A stretch of 64,000 nt of DNA from Murdochiella vaginalis. Lineage in GTDB: Bacteria > Bacillota > Clostridia > Tissierellales > Peptoniphilaceae. The stretch is taken from assembly GCF_900119705.1 (NCBI RefSeq), contig NZ_LT632322.1, forward strand, positions 1,240,001 to 1,304,000, given 5' to 3'. The notes beneath the pieces are model-generated. The model was not told the origin of the DNA. It was given only the letters and a program-made list of their open reading frames with translations, and made no database searches. A program made the translations under genes and the position numbers. Below, one piece after another: positions 7,447-47,150 of this stretch (its first letter is position 1; the number at the start of each line of letters is the position of its first letter).

Positions 7447-8787
7447 TTATTCGTTCTTTTCTTTCCAAGCCTTCACCAAAGCGCGAAATTCTTCTCCTCG
7501 CTCTTCAAAATGTTCGTATTGTCCCCAGCTCGCGCTTGCGGGCGAAAGCAAAACCAAGTCTCCTTTTTCCGCCAGGGATGTCGCAAGCTCCATCGCTTTT
7601 TTCAAGGTTTCAGCGATGATCACACGATCTCCGAGCCCCTTTTCCTGGGCTTCCTTCGCAAGCTTTTCTGCAGTTTGGCCGATCAGCAGCAGCTTTTTTC
7701 CTTGCGGGCGAAAAGCTTCAAAGAAAGCATCAAAGCAGACATGCTTGTCATAGCCCCCCGCAATTAGCAAAATGGGTTGATGAATGCCGGAAAGTGCCTT
7801 GACTGTGGCATCGACATTAGTTCCCTTTGAGTCATTAATATACCGCACGCCCCGCACCGTGCCGACATCTTCCATGCGGTGTTCAATGGGGCGAAAGGAA
7901 GAAAGCGCTTGTTTTATCACCTCTTCTGCAACGCCCAAATCTTTGGCTATTTCGACGGCAACAGCCGCGTTTTGTACATTGTGCTCACCCACTAAGTGCC
8001 AGCCAATTCCTTGGCGAAGCTCTTCCATCAAAGGAGTGTGAAGGTCTACCAGATGAATAGTAGCATGGGTGCCCACCTGATCGATTGCATCCCGAGCGAC
8101 CGTATCGCCCGGCAACAGCCACAGGCTGTCCCGTGCGCTCTGGGCATGGGCAATGGCTGCTTTCGCCTTGGCATAGGCTTCAAAGGATCCGTGCCATTCC
8201 AGATGATCTTCCGTGATATTCAAAATCGCGGCGCGGTGCGGTGCGAATTGCTCCACCGCTTCCAACTGAAAGCTGGAGCATTCCGTGACAAAAAGCGTAC
8301 CTTCTTCCGCTTCGAACATCGTTGAGAGAATCGGAAGACCGATATTGCCGCAGGCAATGGCCTTTTTCCCCGCATGGTTCAAAATCCATTCGATAAGCGA
8401 CGTTGTAGTTGTCTTTCCATTCGAGCCGGTGATGGCGATGAGGTTCTCACCGCCGAAAAGACGATAGGCGATCTCCAAATCGGTATATACCGGTTTCCCC
8501 TCACGATGAGCTCGCTCCACCAAAGGTGTCGCGAAGGAGATGCCGGAGCTGCGCAGAACAAAGGCAAAGGGCTCCAAGGGCAAGTTCTCTGCATCCTCGA
8601 TAATAGTGATGTCCTTCGAGTGGGGCAACGCGGCAATAAAAGCCTTATCCTCATCGCTCAAACCACCGTCCACATAAAGCGAGAGACGACAGCCTGCGGC
8701 GGGAAGTGTACGCAGCACCGAGCGTCCCGTGACACCCATGCCATAAACAAGAACGTTTTTTCCATTAAAAGTAGTTTTAAAATTCAT
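7447..8787 (-). CDS. murD: UDP-N-acetylmuramoyl-L-alanine--D-glutamate ligase MurD
   Basis: Cytoplasmic Mur ligase that adds D-Glu to UDP-MurNAc-L-Ala using ATP. It has 446 residues, normal length. The N-terminal Rossmann-like domain begins VLVYGMGVTGRSVL. The ATP-binding P-loop GSNGKTTTT lies at about residues 118-128, and the central domain contains NITEDHLEWHG. The C-terminal domain carries YINDSKGTNVDAT and LLSPASASWGQYEHFEERG, both typical of MurD rather than MurC/E/F. It lies between mraY and ftsW. murE, murF, murG and murC, usual neighbours, are missing from this cluster. Confidence 0.96.
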   Translation of the reverse strand: MNFKTTFNGKNVLVYGMGVTGRSVLRTLPAAGCRLSLYVDGGLSDEDKAFIAALPHSKDITIIEDAENLPLEPFAFVLRSSGISFATPLVERAHREGKPVYTDLEIAYRLFGGENLIAITGSNGKTTTTSLIEWILNHAGKKAIACGNIGLPILSTMFEAEEGTLFVTECSSFQLEAVEQFAPHRAAILNITEDHLEWHGSFEAYAKAKAAIAHAQSARDSLWLLPGDTVARDAIDQVGTHATIHLVDLHTPLMEELRQGIGWHLVGEHNVQNAAVAVEIAKDLGVAEEVIKQALSSFRPIEHRMEDVGTVRGVRYINDSKGTNVDATVKALSGIHQPILLIAGGYDKHVCFDAFFEAFRPQGKKLLLIGQTAEKLAKEAQEKGLGDRVIIAETLKKAMELATSLAEKGDLVLLSPASASWGQYEHFEERGEEFRALVKAWKEKNE

Positions 8788-8814
8788 TGTTAATCCTTTC
8801 CGGCAATTCGCAAG

Positions 8815-9783
8815 TTACCAGATCCAAACCGTCAGCAGGCACAGTAAAATGCTCACGAGTGAAAATGCCGCAGTGACTTTCTGTTCTGGAAATCCCTTCA
8901 ATTCAAAATGATGATGAATGGGACTCATGAGAAAAATCCGTTTCCCTCCCGTACGTTTGAAATACGCCACCTGAAGGATCACGGAAAGTGCCTCCATAAG
9001 ATAGATTCCTCCCAAGACAATTAAAAATGGCAAGCGATTCATTACCATCAATATGGCAGTGAGTGCACCGCCGATCGCCATGGAGCCGGTGTCTCCCATG
9101 AAGAGAGAGGCCGGATGGCTGTTAAAAAAGAGAAATCCAACCAGCACGCCGGCGAAGAGAATCGAGGCGAGTCCGGCCCGCTCCTGCCCTAAGACAGTTT
9201 GCTGGCTGAGAAAGGCCAGCGTGAGAAATACCGGAAGAGAGACACCGGCGCAAAGGCCATCCAGTCCATCCGTCAAATTCACCGCATTGACCGTACCTAC
9301 CATGATGAAGGCCAACAAAGGGATGCTCAGCAAGCCGATATGCCATTGCCAGCCGAAAAAAGGAATGCGTTGTATGGCCATCTCCGGTGTGAAAAAGTAA
9401 TGAATGCTCAGCAAAACGACCGCAAAAGCAAACTGGAGTATCAATTTTTGCCGCGGCGTCAAGCCTTCACTTTCCCGTTTTTTCACCTTCTCAAAATCAT
9501 CTAAAAAGCCGATCGCTCCGAAGCCCAGCGTGCAGATGGCGATAAGCAAGGTTGCCACATTTCCTTTTCCGCAAAACAACAGTAAAAGGAGAAACACCGC
9601 GGTAAATGCGACACCGCCCATCGTGGGAGTCCCTTTTTTCTTATAATGTGCCTTATTCCCTTCCTCGCGAATTTCCTGTCCCAGCGACTCTTTTTTGGAA
9701 AAGCGAATCCAACAATAGGTTCCCGCGGCGGATACGAGCGCCGCTAATATCCCCCATGGGAAAACCGCTTGAAAAGTCTCCAT
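8815..9783 (-). CDS. mraY: Phospho-N-acetylmuramoyl-pentapeptide transferase MraY
   Basis: Membrane enzyme that transfers phospho-MurNAc-pentapeptide to undecaprenyl phosphate, forming lipid I. It has 322 residues and about ten helices. Family motifs are present: KKKGTPTMGGVAF near residue 45, GFLDDFEKVKK with catalytic-site Asp residues, NLTDGLDGLCAG, and the HHH motif in SPIHHHFELKG. The start METFQAVF (9783) is preferred over an in-frame Met 13 codons upstream because GAAGGAG lies 7 bases before it. The gene lies between the PBP gene and murD. Confidence 0.96.
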   Translation of the reverse strand: METFQAVFPWGILAALVSAAGTYCWIRFSKKESLGQEIREEGNKAHYKKKGTPTMGGVAFTAVFLLLLLFCGKGNVATLLIAICTLGFGAIGFLDDFEKVKKRESEGLTPRQKLILQFAFAVVLLSIHYFFTPEMAIQRIPFFGWQWHIGLLSIPLLAFIMVGTVNAVNLTDGLDGLCAGVSLPVFLTLAFLSQQTVLGQERAGLASILFAGVLVGFLFFNSHPASLFMGDTGSMAIGGALTAILMVMNRLPFLIVLGGIYLMEALSVILQVAYFKRTGGKRIFLMSPIHHHFELKGFPEQKVTAAFSLVSILLCLLTVWIW

Positions 9784-37052: not shown

Positions 37053-38729
37053 TTAGCGCATGGATTTCTTTTTCTTGATCGTTGCAAAACCGACGGCGGC
37101 AGCGGTAAGGCCCAGCAGGGTGATGCCCCACATGCGATTCTCCAATTCCCCGGTCCTCGGTGCTTTAGCGTTCGGTTTCTTCGGCTTCGGTGTGTTCGGC
37201 GTTTCCGGCGGCTGCTCCGGCGTCTGAGGAATGCCCGGAACAGTGCTCATCGAGTCGGAGCTTAGTGGCAGCGAGCTGCTCACGCTGGAGGAGATTGTTG
37301 GCGGGGTAGGCTTTTTCTTCCACGCGCCATAGATTATTTCGTCGGCATTGACAGGGTGGGCTTGGATGGGAGTCTTCAGTGTCTGATCTTCAAACCAACC
37401 CAAGAATGTCCATCCGGAGATTTTGTCCGGGTCTGCCGCCATGTTAAGCTGTTGCCCAACGGCATATTTCGTTGCGTCGGTCGGAATCTTCGCCTTCTTG
37501 GGATAATTGCCCACAAACTGGTAGGAAACCTGGTGATAGATCGGCTGTTTGATAAGGGTCACGTTAGCCGTTTCGCTCTTTGGCTTCGCCGGCGGAGTGT
37601 ACTTCACGCTGTCGCCGCCGATGCCTTGAATGACGCCTGTAAAATTTTCCCTTTGCGTATAGAACGTATACGTAAAGCCCGTTGTCGCGCCGGTGCTATA
37701 CATCACCCAATTATCTCGATCATCACCATCAGGGTTGCCATCATCATCCCCTTTCGCATCAAAGAATTTGTCGTTCGTTGCATCGTAGCCCAACTTCTTT
37801 CCCTTAAGAGCATTATGTGATGCAGGAGATTCCAACTTAACCGCCTGTGTAACGTCAACATCCACAAAAACAAGAATGGGAATGATGGAAATCGGCTCCT
37901 CCGTTCCATGTTTTAAAAAGTCCACTTGAATAGTGAGATCGTCGCAGGAATAGTAAATTAACGGTTTCTTCGGGTCTATATCATATGCAGAATGGTTTTT
38001 ATTGGGCTTAAGTTCGGTTTTTTTGGCTTCGCCCTTTTTATACGGTGGTGTGTGAACGAGATCAATCCTTTTAATCGTCAGCTTAAAATCAACCCATTCA
38101 CCTGTAGCGCTATCCTGCAAGACATTTGCATAGCGAAGCGTATCGCCCTCAGTCAGATAGCCAGGATTTTTAAGATTCAGCGGCGTGATTAGCGTCGACT
38201 GAGAACTCGGCGTAACCACCGATGCGGCGGACATTCTTTGCACCATTTTGGCCAACTGCATGTCCTCAGTAAGTTTTTGTTCGTCTTTCGTTAAAATAAA
38301 TTTCTGAATATCCTCAAACGACCACTCTGTCCCCTGAATGTCCTTGAATGACTCTTTCAATTTCGTTTGATACTCGGCATTATTATTCTTCTGCGCGGTG
38401 ATGGCGCCATCCAGTGCCTCTATGGAGTCCGCATTATTTTTCTCGATCTCCGTCTTAGCGTTTTCTAATGCTTTAGCATCGCGCACGTAAACGGGATCTT
38501 TCGCTTGCGGAGTAACGTTTACGGTTACGCCGAGAGCAGTGGCTTCCTTAATCTTATCCTGCAAAGCCTGCTGATTTTTAATGATCAGATTTCCCTCGGC
38601 ATCATATTGAATACCTGACGGATCGTCTACCGTTTCAGCCACAGCATTACATGGAAGCATCCCTGCCACCATGCTGACGATCAACAGCAGCGATAGTAAT
38701 ACCCTCCCCCATCGATTTTTCTTATTCAT
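37053..38729 (-). CDS. Cell-wall-anchored surface protein with variant sorting signal
   Basis: Secreted wall protein of 558 residues. The signal peptide spans about 1-32 (basic start, LLSLLLIVSMVAGMLPCNAVA). A Lys/Glu/Asn-rich helical region follows (about 40-150), then a beta-rich central part of unknown fold. Near 410-475 a module with VSYQFVGNYPKKAKIPTD and GWTFLGWFED ends in YGAWKK, resembling SHIRT/InlB-B-type repeat domains. A Pro/Ser spacer leads to the sorting signal: APRTGE, a helix (WGITLLGLTAAAVGFA) and KKKKSMR. The motif departs from canonical LPxTG. ATG at 38729 is chosen because GAAGGAG and the signal peptide follow it. No sortase gene is in the window. Confidence 0.85.
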   Translation of the reverse strand: MNKKNRWGRVLLSLLLIVSMVAGMLPCNAVAETVDDPSGIQYDAEGNLIIKNQQALQDKIKEATALGVTVNVTPQAKDPVYVRDAKALENAKTEIEKNNADSIEALDGAITAQKNNNAEYQTKLKESFKDIQGTEWSFEDIQKFILTKDEQKLTEDMQLAKMVQRMSAASVVTPSSQSTLITPLNLKNPGYLTEGDTLRYANVLQDSATGEWVDFKLTIKRIDLVHTPPYKKGEAKKTELKPNKNHSAYDIDPKKPLIYYSCDDLTIQVDFLKHGTEEPISIIPILVFVDVDVTQAVKLESPASHNALKGKKLGYDATNDKFFDAKGDDDGNPDGDDRDNWVMYSTGATTGFTYTFYTQRENFTGVIQGIGGDSVKYTPPAKPKSETANVTLIKQPIYHQVSYQFVGNYPKKAKIPTDATKYAVGQQLNMAADPDKISGWTFLGWFEDQTLKTPIQAHPVNADEIIYGAWKKKPTPPTISSSVSSSLPLSSDSMSTVPGIPQTPEQPPETPNTPKPKKPNAKAPRTGELENRMWGITLLGLTAAAVGFATIKKKKSMR

Positions 38730-38780
38730 TTTAACTCCTTCTCTCACTACAGACCTACCAAATGTTCTCTCCCCGTCCAT

Positions 38781-38792
38781 GGTCATATGACC
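38781..38792. promoter_or_regulatory. 12-bp palindrome in the surface-protein promoter region
   Basis: GGTCATATGACC is a perfect palindrome located 10-20 bases downstream of the start expected from the TATACT -10 element at 38808-38813 (minus strand). Its position suits a repressor operator; the factor is unknown. Confidence 0.45.
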
Positions 38793-40508: not shown

Positions 40509-41048
40509 ATGAAAAATAAGTATGCCGGAACGCAAACGGAAAAGAACCTGCAAACTGCCTTTGCAGGGGAATCGCAGGCAAGAAACAAATATACGTTTTT
40601 TGCTTCCAAAGCAAAAAAGCAAGGCTTTGAACAGATTGCTGCGCTGTTTTTGAAAACCGCAGAAAACGAACAGGAGCATGCAAAGCTCTGGTTCAAGGCA
40701 CTTGGCGGAATCAACGATACTACCGACAATCTGAAGGATGCTGCTGCCGGCGAAAACTACGAGTGGACGGATATGTATGACGGTTTTGCCAAGACAGCCG
40801 ATGAGGAAGGCTTCCCCGAATTGGCGGAACAATTCCGTGGCGTTGCCGCCATCGAAAAGCATCATGAGGAACGTTATCGCGCTCTTCTCCACAACATCGA
40901 AGCACAACAGGTTTTCGCGCGTAGCGAGGTGAAAATTTGGGAATGCCGCAACTGTGGTCACATCGTCGTCGGCGAAAAGGCCCCGGATGTATGCCCGGTA
41001 TGCCATCATCCGCAAGCATTCTTCGAGATTGCGGCACAGAATTATTAA
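40509..41048 (+). CDS. Rubrerythrin
   Basis: Non-haem diiron peroxidase that reduces hydrogen peroxide in anaerobes; 179 residues. The N-terminal four-helix ferritin-like domain supplies Glu ligands ([34 protein letters not shown]). The C-terminal rubredoxin domain has paired Cys motifs CRNCG and CPVCHHP binding one iron. AAGGAGTG precedes the ATG. It stands alone with its own terminator and is divergent from the oxygen-sensitive cysteine desulfidase gene. Confidence 0.96.
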
Positions 41049-41070
41049 TCTGAATAGAAAAGTAGAAGAG

Positions 41071-41106
41071 AAGAGCATCCGGCCTTGGCCGGATGCTCTT
41101 TTTCTT
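41071..41106 (+). terminator. Terminator after rubrerythrin
   Basis: A 14-bp perfect stem AAGAGCATCCGGCC / GGCCGGATGCTCTT with a 2-nt loop, followed by TTTCTT. Confidence 0.93.
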
Positions 41107-41132
41107 AATTGGAATGGTAATAAAGATTTCCC

Positions 41133-41502
41133 CTCTACAGGTTCCAAGTCAGTTGTAGACCGTTTTGCGATTTTTGTCATTTCCACTCTACAGATCCTGA
41201 GCCGACAGTAGAGTTGTTTTCCCGTTTTTACTATTTCACTCTACAGATCCCGAGCCAGCGGTAGAGTTGTTTTCCCGTTTTTGTCATTTCCACTCTACAC
41301 TTTCCGAGTCAACGGTAGAGTTGTTTTCCCGTTTTTGTTATTTCACTCTACACTTTCCGAGTCGGCGGTAGAGGTTTTTTCCGTTTTTCTCATTTACACT
41401 CTACAAAAACTGAGCCCACTGTAGAGTGGATTTCCCGTTTTCTCATTTACACTCTACACTTTCCGAATCAGCGGTAGAGTTGTTTTCCCGTTTTTGCCAT
41501 TA
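41133..41502. repeat. Seven tandem 53-bp hairpin-forming repeats
   Basis: CTCTACA starts seven units at 41133, 41186, 41239, 41293, 41346, 41399 and 41452 (steps 53, 53, 54, 53, 53, 53). Each unit has CTCTAC, about 16 variable bases, GTAGAG (GTAGAC in the first, decayed unit), then a T-rich stretch like TTGTTTTCCCGTTTTTG. The outer arms are invariant in units 2-7. An inner CCG/CGG pairing becomes CTG/CAG in unit 2, a compensatory change. It lies between the rubrerythrin terminator and the convergent rRNA operon. Period and absence of spacers rule out CRISPR. Confidence 0.93.
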
Positions 41503-41646
41503 TGCCTCGCTCACCGCGCGCCCTGCGCGCTTCGCGCTTGGTCTTGCGGGAGCTCTGGCAATCCCACGGCGCTTTCGCCTCTGGATGCCTCGCTCACCGC
41601 TCGCCCTGCGCGCTTCGCGCTTGGTCTTGCGGGAGCTCTGGCAATC
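41502..41646. repeat. 62-bp direct duplication
   Basis: Copies at 41502-41563 and 41585-41646 differ by about one base and are separated by 21 bp that can form a small GGCG/CGCC hairpin. The block is GC rich (CGCGCTTCGCGC motifs), unlike the AT-rich array beside it. A loosely similar GC-rich segment lies at about 42027-42062 in the 5S-23S spacer. Confidence 0.9.
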
Positions 41647-41679
41647 TCACCAGGTTCTCATCCTGCCCCCTACCTCTAC

Positions 41680-41715
41680 AAACAAAAGAAAAGAGCGGCC
41701 CATCGGGTCACTCTT
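41680..41715 (-). terminator. Terminator of the rRNA operon
   Basis: On the minus strand an 11-bp stem with one mismatch (AAGAG...CCC / GGG...CTCTT) is followed by TTCTTTTGTTTG. It lies 13 bases after tRNA-fMet. Confidence 0.85.
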
Positions 41716-41727
41716 CCCTTTTCTGTA

Positions 41728-41799
41728 TTGCGGGGGCAGGATTCGAACCTGCGACCTCCGGGTTATGAGCCCGACGAGATGCCACTTCTCTACCCCGCG
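41728..41799 (-). tRNA. Initiator tRNA-fMet (anticodon CAU)
   Basis: A 72-nt gene with the initiator signature: unpaired C1-A72 (CGCGGGG against CCCCGCA) and three G-C pairs under the anticodon loop (GGGCTCATAACCC). Anticodon is CAU; T-arm CGCAGGTTCGAATCCTG. No CCA is encoded (the next bases are TAC). It is the last gene of the rRNA operon. Confidence 0.96.
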
Positions 41800-41829: not shown

Positions 41830-41836
41830 CCTTTTA

Positions 41837-41953
41837 TTTGGCGACTACCTACTCTCCCAGGCCGTTTCCAACCAAGTACCATCGGCGATGTGAGGCTTAA
41901 CTTCTGTGTTCGGGATGGGAACAGGTGTATCCCTCACGCTATCGTCACCATAT
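41837..41953 (-). rRNA. rrf: 5S ribosomal RNA
   Basis: About 117 nt. The minus strand reads GGTGACGATAGCG, ACACCTGTTCCCATCCCGAA, AGTTAAGCCTC and GAGAGTAGGTAGTCGCC, the conserved 5S blocks; the ends are estimated from terminal pairing. Confidence 0.95.
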
Positions 41954-42072
41954 TAAACATTCAATTCTTAACAATTCCGCATCTCCGTCAAAGACGCTTT
42001 CGTCTCCGACGCAGTCGATTTCTTCCGCGCGCCTTCGCGCTACGCGCTCGCCTTGCGGGAAACCGTTGCGTA

Positions 42073-42112
42073 TGAAATGGCTACCAACCGCTTCGCTTGT
42101 TGGGCCATTTCA
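42073..42112 (-). other. Processing-type hairpin in the 23S-5S spacer
   Basis: TGAAATGGC and GCCATTTCA pair, with an inner CCAAC/GTTGG, between 23S and 5S. The rest of the 41954-42131 spacer holds no gene. Confidence 0.5.
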
Positions 42113-42131
42113 CAATCTTAATAGGTATTTC

Positions 42132-45164
<3,033 letters not shown>

Positions 45165-45242
45165 AGAAATATCTATTAAGATTGAATTGTCAAGGAACAG
45201 TCTTCCTTTCGGAAATGCCGTACGACGTAGCCGTCTCCGGCA

Positions 45243-45315
45243 TGGAGATAAAGGGAATCGAACCCTTGACCCCCTGCTTGCAAGGCAGGTGCTCTCCCAG
45301 CTGAGCTATATCCCC
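45243..45315 (-). tRNA. tRNA-Ala (anticodon UGC)
   Basis: A 73-nt cloverleaf in the 16S-23S spacer: acceptor GGGGATA/TATCTCC with G3-U70, anticodon loop CTTGCAA giving UGC. No CCA is encoded. tRNA-Ile, often its companion in this spacer, is absent. Confidence 0.96.
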
Positions 45316-47036
<1,721 letters not shown>

Positions 47037-47150
47037 AAAGTTTTGAGAGCCAATATCTTGACTCTAAATTTGTTGTTTGAATTATTTTTAACTCAAAGTT
47101 TATTGATTGATTCAGTTGTTTAGGTTCGCGTCACGCGAGGTGACCTATAC

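Follow-up and report, generated by a model that had tools for sequence, protein, structure and literature searches.

The intergenic array at positions 41133–41502 of the studied window, a stretch of 64,000 nucleotides from Murdochiella vaginalis, belongs, judging by sequence comparison, to a family of intergenic satellites that is specific to Murdochiella and dispersed over its genomes. This one bacterial genus carries many array families, and their repeat lengths lie near whole helical turns despite unrelated arms. Such lengths suggest DNA-bound protein scaffolds rather than RNA hairpins. We tentatively propose, at a little under an even chance, that the array is a phased lattice for a candidate DNA-binding protein and serves as a scaffold or a boundary between transcription units.

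The array and its distribution

The array consists of seven CTCTAC-N16-GTAGAG boxes at 41133–41479, which follow each other in steps of 53, 53, 54, 53, 53 and 53 bp. The linkers between boxes are 25 or 26 bases long, T-rich on the plus strand and A-rich on the minus strand. The array and its neighbours are as follows (boxes were located by pattern search).

40509–41048, plus strand: rubrerythrin gene, left neighbour
41072–41104, plus strand: strong rubrerythrin hairpin resembling an intrinsic terminator, upstream of the array, recognized by eye (the terminator scan makes no call there)
41133–41502, strand not assigned: entire array, period 53/54 bp, linkers A-rich on the minus strand
41133–41160, plus strand: box 1, family A, CTCTAC-N16-GTAGAC, one mismatch in the right arm
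41186–41213, plus strand: box 2, exact CTCTAC-N16-GTAGAG
41239–41266, plus strand: box 3, exact
41293–41320, plus strand: box 4, exact
41346–41373, plus strand: box 5, exact
41399–41426, plus strand: box 6, exact
41452–41479, plus strand: box 7, exact
41728–41799, minus strand: tRNA-Met, right neighbour
41836–47038, minus strand: rRNA operon (5S 41836–41952, 23S 42131–45164, tRNA-Ala, 16S 45515–47038)

An earlier note on this DNA had described seven units at an almost constant 53-bp step, with arms kept in units 2–7, T-rich tails in plus orientation and convergent flanks. This description holds: only one step is 54 bp, boxes 2–7 are exact and box 1 has GTAGAC as its right arm, the T-rich tails are present, and rubrerythrin on the plus strand converges with tRNA-Met and the 5S, 23S and 16S genes on the minus strand. 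Tandem Repeats Finder (TRF) detects the array at 41171–41501 with period 53 and 6.2 copies. The box pattern has seven matches in the window (six on the plus strand and one on the minus strand, which is box 6 reread), vs an expectation of 0.00 over 100 shuffles.

Between the array and tRNA-Met, at 41502–41660, lies a G+C-rich repeat of 83–86 bp in two copies (gcctcgctcaccg...ggcaatc). A similar 86-bp repeat with 3.1 copies is found at L093 806–1069 in another genome of the genus (G002), which has no A box. Elsewhere in the window, at 37053–38786 on the minus strand, a surface protein is encoded whose C-terminus (PRTGE) we take to be of the sortase type.

We designate CTCTAC/GTAGAG boxes as family A, the window's own genome, Murdochiella vaginalis, as G000, and the other genomes of the genus as G001–G004. 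The genome of Murdochiella vaginalis Marseille-P2341 comprises 1,671,491 bases in one contig (PMC6011929). The own genome has ten loci that together contain 48 exact boxes (6, 4, 5, 1, 4, 6, 7, 3, 6 and 6 boxes), and the reversed-pattern control has no match there; three further boxes have one mismatch, and all of them lie on the lattice. If up to two mismatches are allowed, the own genome has 94 matches vs 48 for the reversed control, and the two-mismatch matches off the lattice are due to chance. The five Murdochiella genomes G000–G004 contain 48, 20, 0, 36 and 0 exact boxes, respectively; the control occurs once, in one genome only. The tandem A pattern is present in three of 130 genomes of the family, all from one of 39 genera, and the remaining 127 lack it. 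When species genomes were scanned for a pair of adjacent boxes, in a set that may omit records near the window, 11 stretches came up, only from Murdochiella massiliensis SIT12 and Murdochiella sp. Marseille-P8839. The earlier note had counted a lack of further genome copies against its own reading; many copies exist.

The flanking genes have no common function that we could see: 20 proteins at nine loci were scanned, 17 with a Pfam match and three without one. At L024 a large serine recombinase gene (7697–9337) lies a few kb from an A array, and at L021 (2559–4183) DUF6088 and AbiEii-type genes, likely a toxin-antitoxin pair, directly adjoin an A array. The orientation of the ten arrays relative to replication was inspected by eye, and their number is too small for a trend. 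A viral origin was considered and rejected: the tandem A and B patterns have no match in the viral contigs searched. The possibility of a coding repeat was likewise discarded because neither 53 nor 55 bp is a multiple of 3. At L020 4728–5315 a 54-bp unit lets a long open reading frame cross the array, which could be misannotated as a repeat protein; such frames through 54-bp arrays look accidental. Among the matches listed for open-licence papers, no title or abstract deals with such arrays in Murdochiella. The searched text of the genome paper (PMC6011929), a species description that carries an expression of concern (PMC12918405), contains no mention of repeats, CRISPR, tandem, palindromes or intergenic sequence.

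Conserved arms, fixed spacing and helical periods

Conservation was assessed on 120 distinct boxes from 25 arrays. Per-position conservation is 0.95–1.00 in the arms, a figure raised by the choice of boxes with at most two arm mismatches, vs 0.38–0.75 in the loops; the variable loop beside kept arms reported in the earlier note extends to the entire set. Loop identity is 0.62 within arrays vs 0.43 between arrays. In 13 pairs of related loci the nearest loops are 0.48–0.79 identical and the arms 0.93–1.00. The four-box array L041 of G001 looks like the ortholog of the window array, since its left flank matches (by eye) the window DNA between the array and tRNA-Met. In these two arrays the arms are 0.99 identical to the consensus, and the loops are 0.57 identical to each other (nearest 0.62).

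The spacing is nearly invariant. In family A the R-to-F nearest distance equals 22 in 104 of 108 cases (31, 33, 33 and 38 in the others), and the F-to-R nearest distance is 31 in 41 cases, 32 in 65 and 30 in one (n=107). A second family, B, has the form GATGGTGG-N24-CCACCATC with period 55; there are 53 exact copies in G000, two in G001, 19 in G003 and none in G002 or G004. Its loop is 24 in all 53 copies though 17–27 were allowed by the search, its R-to-F distance is 23 in 45 of 45 cases, and its F-to-R distance is 32 in 49 of 53, the remaining four being 29. The spacing of family C is looser, with loops of 6 to 9.

In total, eleven array families with unrelated arms (A to K) were seen in Murdochiella. 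The families other than A and B, with arms and periods taken from TRF, are listed below.

Family C: GTCAGGG, period 43
Family D: ACGGGTCA, period 53
Family E: AGGAGCCC, period 63, one array of 2.6 copies
Family F: GCCAGGGT, period 53/54
Family G, in G002: CTAGGTA, period 64
Family H, in G002: ACATGGGG, period 64
Family I, in G002: GACCGTGCC, period 64
Family J, in G002: TACCGT, period 65
Family K, in G002: ACTGTA, period 53

Genome-wide counts cover A, B, C and I, and families D, E, F, G, H, J and K are known from the TRF samples. There are 41, 10, 0, 8 and 0 copies of family C in G000 to G004; the 108 copies of family I are confined to G002 among the five genomes. Family C arrays at L080 18887–19600, L083 8414–9297, and L090 1394–2223 and 11894–12428 reach up to 20 copies of a 42–44 bp unit and have higher-order periods of 86 and 96 (43+53). 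The TRF runs covered the array loci of G000, G001 and G003 together with larger samples of the own genome (464 kb) and of G002 (398 kb); the 464-kb sample is spread, not random, and its 620–640 kb stretch was known beforehand to hold B. No inverted-arm array was detected in 80 kb of G004, a sample too small for a conclusion. In 36 stretches of other genera (621,403 bases from 19 genomes of 19 genera, five of them under 2 kb), no array with inverted arms of at least 7 bp was found.

The family periods cluster at 42–44, 53–55 and 63–65 bp, i.e., at 4, 5 and 6 helical turns. Among 56 TRF arrays with period 30–75 and inverted arms of at least 7 bp, seven have periods of 40–42 (five of these are the leader hairpin in tandem), 37 have periods of 53–55 and 12 have periods of 63–65; 36 of them lie at loci chosen for A arrays, the other 20 in spread stretches of G000 and G002. 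Two L080 arrays, with a period of 86, fall outside the 30–75 range. Where a tandem repeat lacks such arms, its period is anywhere from 21 to 54 (R 0.41 at 10.6 bp for 42 rows); these rows include at least five A, C or K arrays whose TRF consensus arms are 6 bp. For the eleven family periods R=0.93 at 10.5 bp, and none of 200,000 random draws from 38–68 is as high; this test is too optimistic because families in one genome may share ancestry. Reduced to the three period classes, the test gives p=0.012. No single pitch is singled out by the data because R is nearly constant, 0.91 to 0.93, across pitches from 10.2 to 11.0 bp. Period shifts of about one turn are seen inside families: from 53 to 64 in A (two related loci), from 43 to 54 in C, and from 64 to 53–55 in H. 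Steps between the classes, at 46–51 or 57–61, make up eight of 605 pooled steps (exact B counts were used, the one-mismatch B count being blurred by overlaps). Family A has one 62-bp step (+9), in L027.

A hairpin or terminator needs neither a fixed loop length nor helical periods. Because arms and spacing are fixed, loops are long and unpaired, and periods come in whole turns, we propose dimeric or cooperative DNA-binding sites. Fixed half-sites, fixed spacing and a helical repeat occur together in families A and B, family C being looser. Each unit comprises two inverted half-sites, about CCACTCTACA / TGTAGAGTGG, with arms and spacing kept while the rest drifts. Each arm family would be a putative sequence-specific site on double-stranded DNA, and an array would be a phased lattice on one helix face for a putative nucleoid-type or partner protein, and would serve locally as a scaffold or as a boundary that separates transcription units. 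The arrays may grow and shrink through block duplication, and many of them may travel or recombine as a leader-array-end composite. The earlier note had also mentioned a repeat bound by a protein: this is the better half of its guess, compared with the terminator, and agrees with the arms, spacing and periods, the binding itself being presumed from sequence features.

RNA structure and terminator signals

One reading of the earlier note was a bank of terminators or RNA-fold elements that blocks plus-strand read-through, with selection on RNA structure. More broadly, tandem hairpins could act at the RNA level by terminating or attenuating transcription or by stabilising RNA; the window array would then block read-through into the antisense strand of the rRNA operon. 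The convergent site with its T-rich tails invites this explanation, which we nevertheless regard as unlikely.

The compensatory change of an inner pair, reported as CTG/CAG in unit 2 and CCG/CGG elsewhere, is real for unit 2 and units 3, 4, 5 and 7, but in units 1 and 6 the middle pair is broken. Since the first right-arm base takes part in this inner helix, the helix competes with the outer stem. Across the 120 boxes, read in the orientation of the window, its pair 12–23 is formed 45 times vs 45.2 in shuffles, and the middle pair 13–22, which was said to covary, 45 times vs 40.3 ± 4.1, which is not above shuffles. Two pairs do exceed shuffles in these 120 boxes, which are related by descent, and speak for an RNA element: 14–21 (67 vs 48.5 ± 4.1) and the arm-side pair 7–22 (72 vs 59.2 ± 3.9). 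In the 25 array consensuses, z exceeds 3 for five of 394 position pairs, with no mirror pair among them; the best mirror pair is again 7–22, with z 2.7. Changes within the arms are biased on the T-rich strand in a way that fits a hairpin: G-T accounts for 29 cells, A-C for 10 and other mismatches for 11 (on the A-rich strand, A-C for 29 and G-T for 10). These cells are not independent, each change being counted up to twice with related boxes kept in and L059 left out. A compensated arm change, C-G replacing T-A, is seen in one distinct box of 120, in L059. RNAalifold on 126 boxes gives −1.29 kcal/mol with a covariation term of 0.06 for the T-rich strand and no structure for the other strand. 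Thus, compensatory changes along a conserved fold were not found apart from the weak signal at pairs 7–22 and 14–21, and the claim of selection on RNA structure is not sustained, with one compensated arm pair in 120 boxes and no consensus fold.

The minus strand of the window array folds at z −2.55 vs shuffles (two of 100 equally good), and the terminator scan makes one terminator-like call there inside the array, at 41430–41415; both facts could be taken for an RNA-level element. For the plus strand, to which the earlier claim referred, z is only −1.59 (seven of 100 shuffles equally good), and no site is called inside the array. The box loops are 16 nt, long and fixed in length, and the G+C-rich stem, short loop and T run of a terminator are not combined in the boxes. 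Terminator-like leader hairpins beside many arrays speak for an RNA-level element; the strong terminator that already stands upstream of the window array (41072–41104) speaks against it. The Rfam search at the window array produced no match at the gathering score and four sub-threshold matches (E up to 1) within 41040–41720.

Placement, judged by eye at ten loci, does not suit terminators either. Terminators are expected downstream of same-strand genes, and the T-rich strand follows a same-strand gene at only three loci (the window, L020 and L026). It is antisense to both neighbours at three (L021 twice, L025), and the array lies between divergent genes at two (L023, L027), so that three of ten loci fit and five do not; orientation is ambiguous at L022 and L024. 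With rare compensation, no consensus fold, no plus-strand terminator in the array and five of ten loci unsuitable, the terminator reading is not supported. We therefore rejected a terminator bank or RNA-fold element as the main reading.

Turnover, competing explanations and known systems

The main rival of the protein lattice takes the arrays for satellites that are selfish or neutral. Such modular, non-autonomous repeats would have spread through the clade and would expand by slippage or unequal exchange; their arms would stay alike via neighbour-templated repair, and they would have no host function. We consider this a serious possibility that falls well short of being probable. It fits the turnover and the modular ends. 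As judged by flanking proteins, arrays of three genomes are partly at common loci (oppF-hpf, upstream of dnaX, pepF-ABC and others). In G000, G001 and G003 an array lies between the oppF terminator and hpf, whereas in G002 the two genes are still adjacent and the array is absent; this one empty site is too diverged for defining ends, and G004 is no test, as another gene follows oppF. The number of boxes at related loci varies (1, 7 and 6 at oppF-hpf; 7 vs 4 at the rRNA locus), the order upstream of dnaX is B then A in G000 and A then B in G003, and L042 contains block duplications within the array. Since box numbers differ between genomes at related loci, they may serve as typing markers.

The modular ends, recognized by eye, are a leader of G+C-rich hairpins (GCCGCCTTCGGCGGC, CCGGCC..AGGCCGG) to the left of 17 of the 25 A arrays, L027 having two of three, and a conserved right end (TGGTTTYGC..TAATT..AAAA..AAACACGA or a close variant) at 16 of 25. 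Neither is seen at the window array, L041, L042 or the three oppF-hpf arrays. Leader hairpins also stand beside C, D and E arrays (by eye). The exact leader patterns, which miss variants and some other-strand copies, occur in the 464-kb sample only at L081, beside a B array, and are missing from the samples of G002 (398 kb), G004 (80 kb) and other genera (621 kb).

What a selfish satellite does not predict is the spacing: loop length is fixed under strong loop divergence, and helical periods with one-turn jumps recur across unrelated arms. Moreover, no Y1_Tnp transposase, the sole transposase type searched, is encoded in the own genome. The lattice, for its part, has to contend with arm families that may share an origin in one genome and hence are not independent, with a set of arrays drawn largely from A-selected loci (36 of 56) and, at 40–42 bp, mostly from the leader hairpin (five of seven), with the 62-bp step in L027, and with the loops of 6 to 9 in family C. 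Template switching between inverted neighbours could homogenise the arms without any binding, and the weak covariation at pairs 7–22 and 14–21 together with the G-T bias would fit a hairpin of the T-rich strand. A CRISPR-like or other guide array, which the regular repeats with variable 16-nt inserts might call to mind, is highly improbable and was rejected: the inserts are short and, at 0.62 identity within arrays, not the unique and unrelated spacers of such systems, and the linkers vary too.

We thus retain the phased protein lattice as the preferred reading of the window array. Its extension to a general class is more doubtful, though worth stating: helically phased palindromic satellites with lineage-specific arms (A, B and C in one clade; G, H, I and J in G002), their repeat kept at 4, 5 or 6 turns, might be selected for a protein lattice on one DNA face and so constitute a chromosome scaffold of satellite DNA. 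Read by a protein, the arrays would give bacteria an equivalent of chromosome structure built on satellites; if no protein reads them, they would show that neutral exchange is enough to hold helical spacing.

Several known repeat systems resemble these arrays in part. Mycobacterial MIRU-VNTR are intergenic tandem repeats of ~50 to 100 bp at many loci, as are the Murdochiella arrays in kind; MIRU-VNTR are not known to form an inverted half-site lattice. Leptospira interrogans likewise has non-coding dispersed long-repeat satellites at many loci of one genome (PMC6749651), with repeat lengths of 37, 46 and 69; the part of that paper considered here mentions neither inverted arms nor helical spacing. 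REP, BIME and REPIN elements are intergenic palindromic repeats in alternating orientation that form tandem arrays (PMC3733652; PMC3116915). The Murdochiella arrays are also built of intergenic palindromic units in alternating orientation, and the A arm starts with GTAG as in GTAG-tagged REP palindromes, but families B to K have no GTAG in their arms, and fixed spacing and helical periods set the arrays apart. A REP/RAYT system was rejected, since the RAYT-type Y1 transposase PF01797, the only protein searched for in the genome, is absent from the own genome (0 of 1; 5 of 14 in the control rings), an older loss being possible. In plan, many A arrays are like the pneumococcal BOX element (boxA-boxB(n)-boxC), a modular intergenic repeat dispersed in few species (S. 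pneumoniae, S. suis), in which end modules flank tandem core units of varying number (PMC3049150); the leader and right end of A arrays would be the counterparts of these modules. Unlike BOX, the Murdochiella cores consist of inverted half-sites, belong to several unrelated arm families and have helical periods, and arrays without ends exist, the window array among them.
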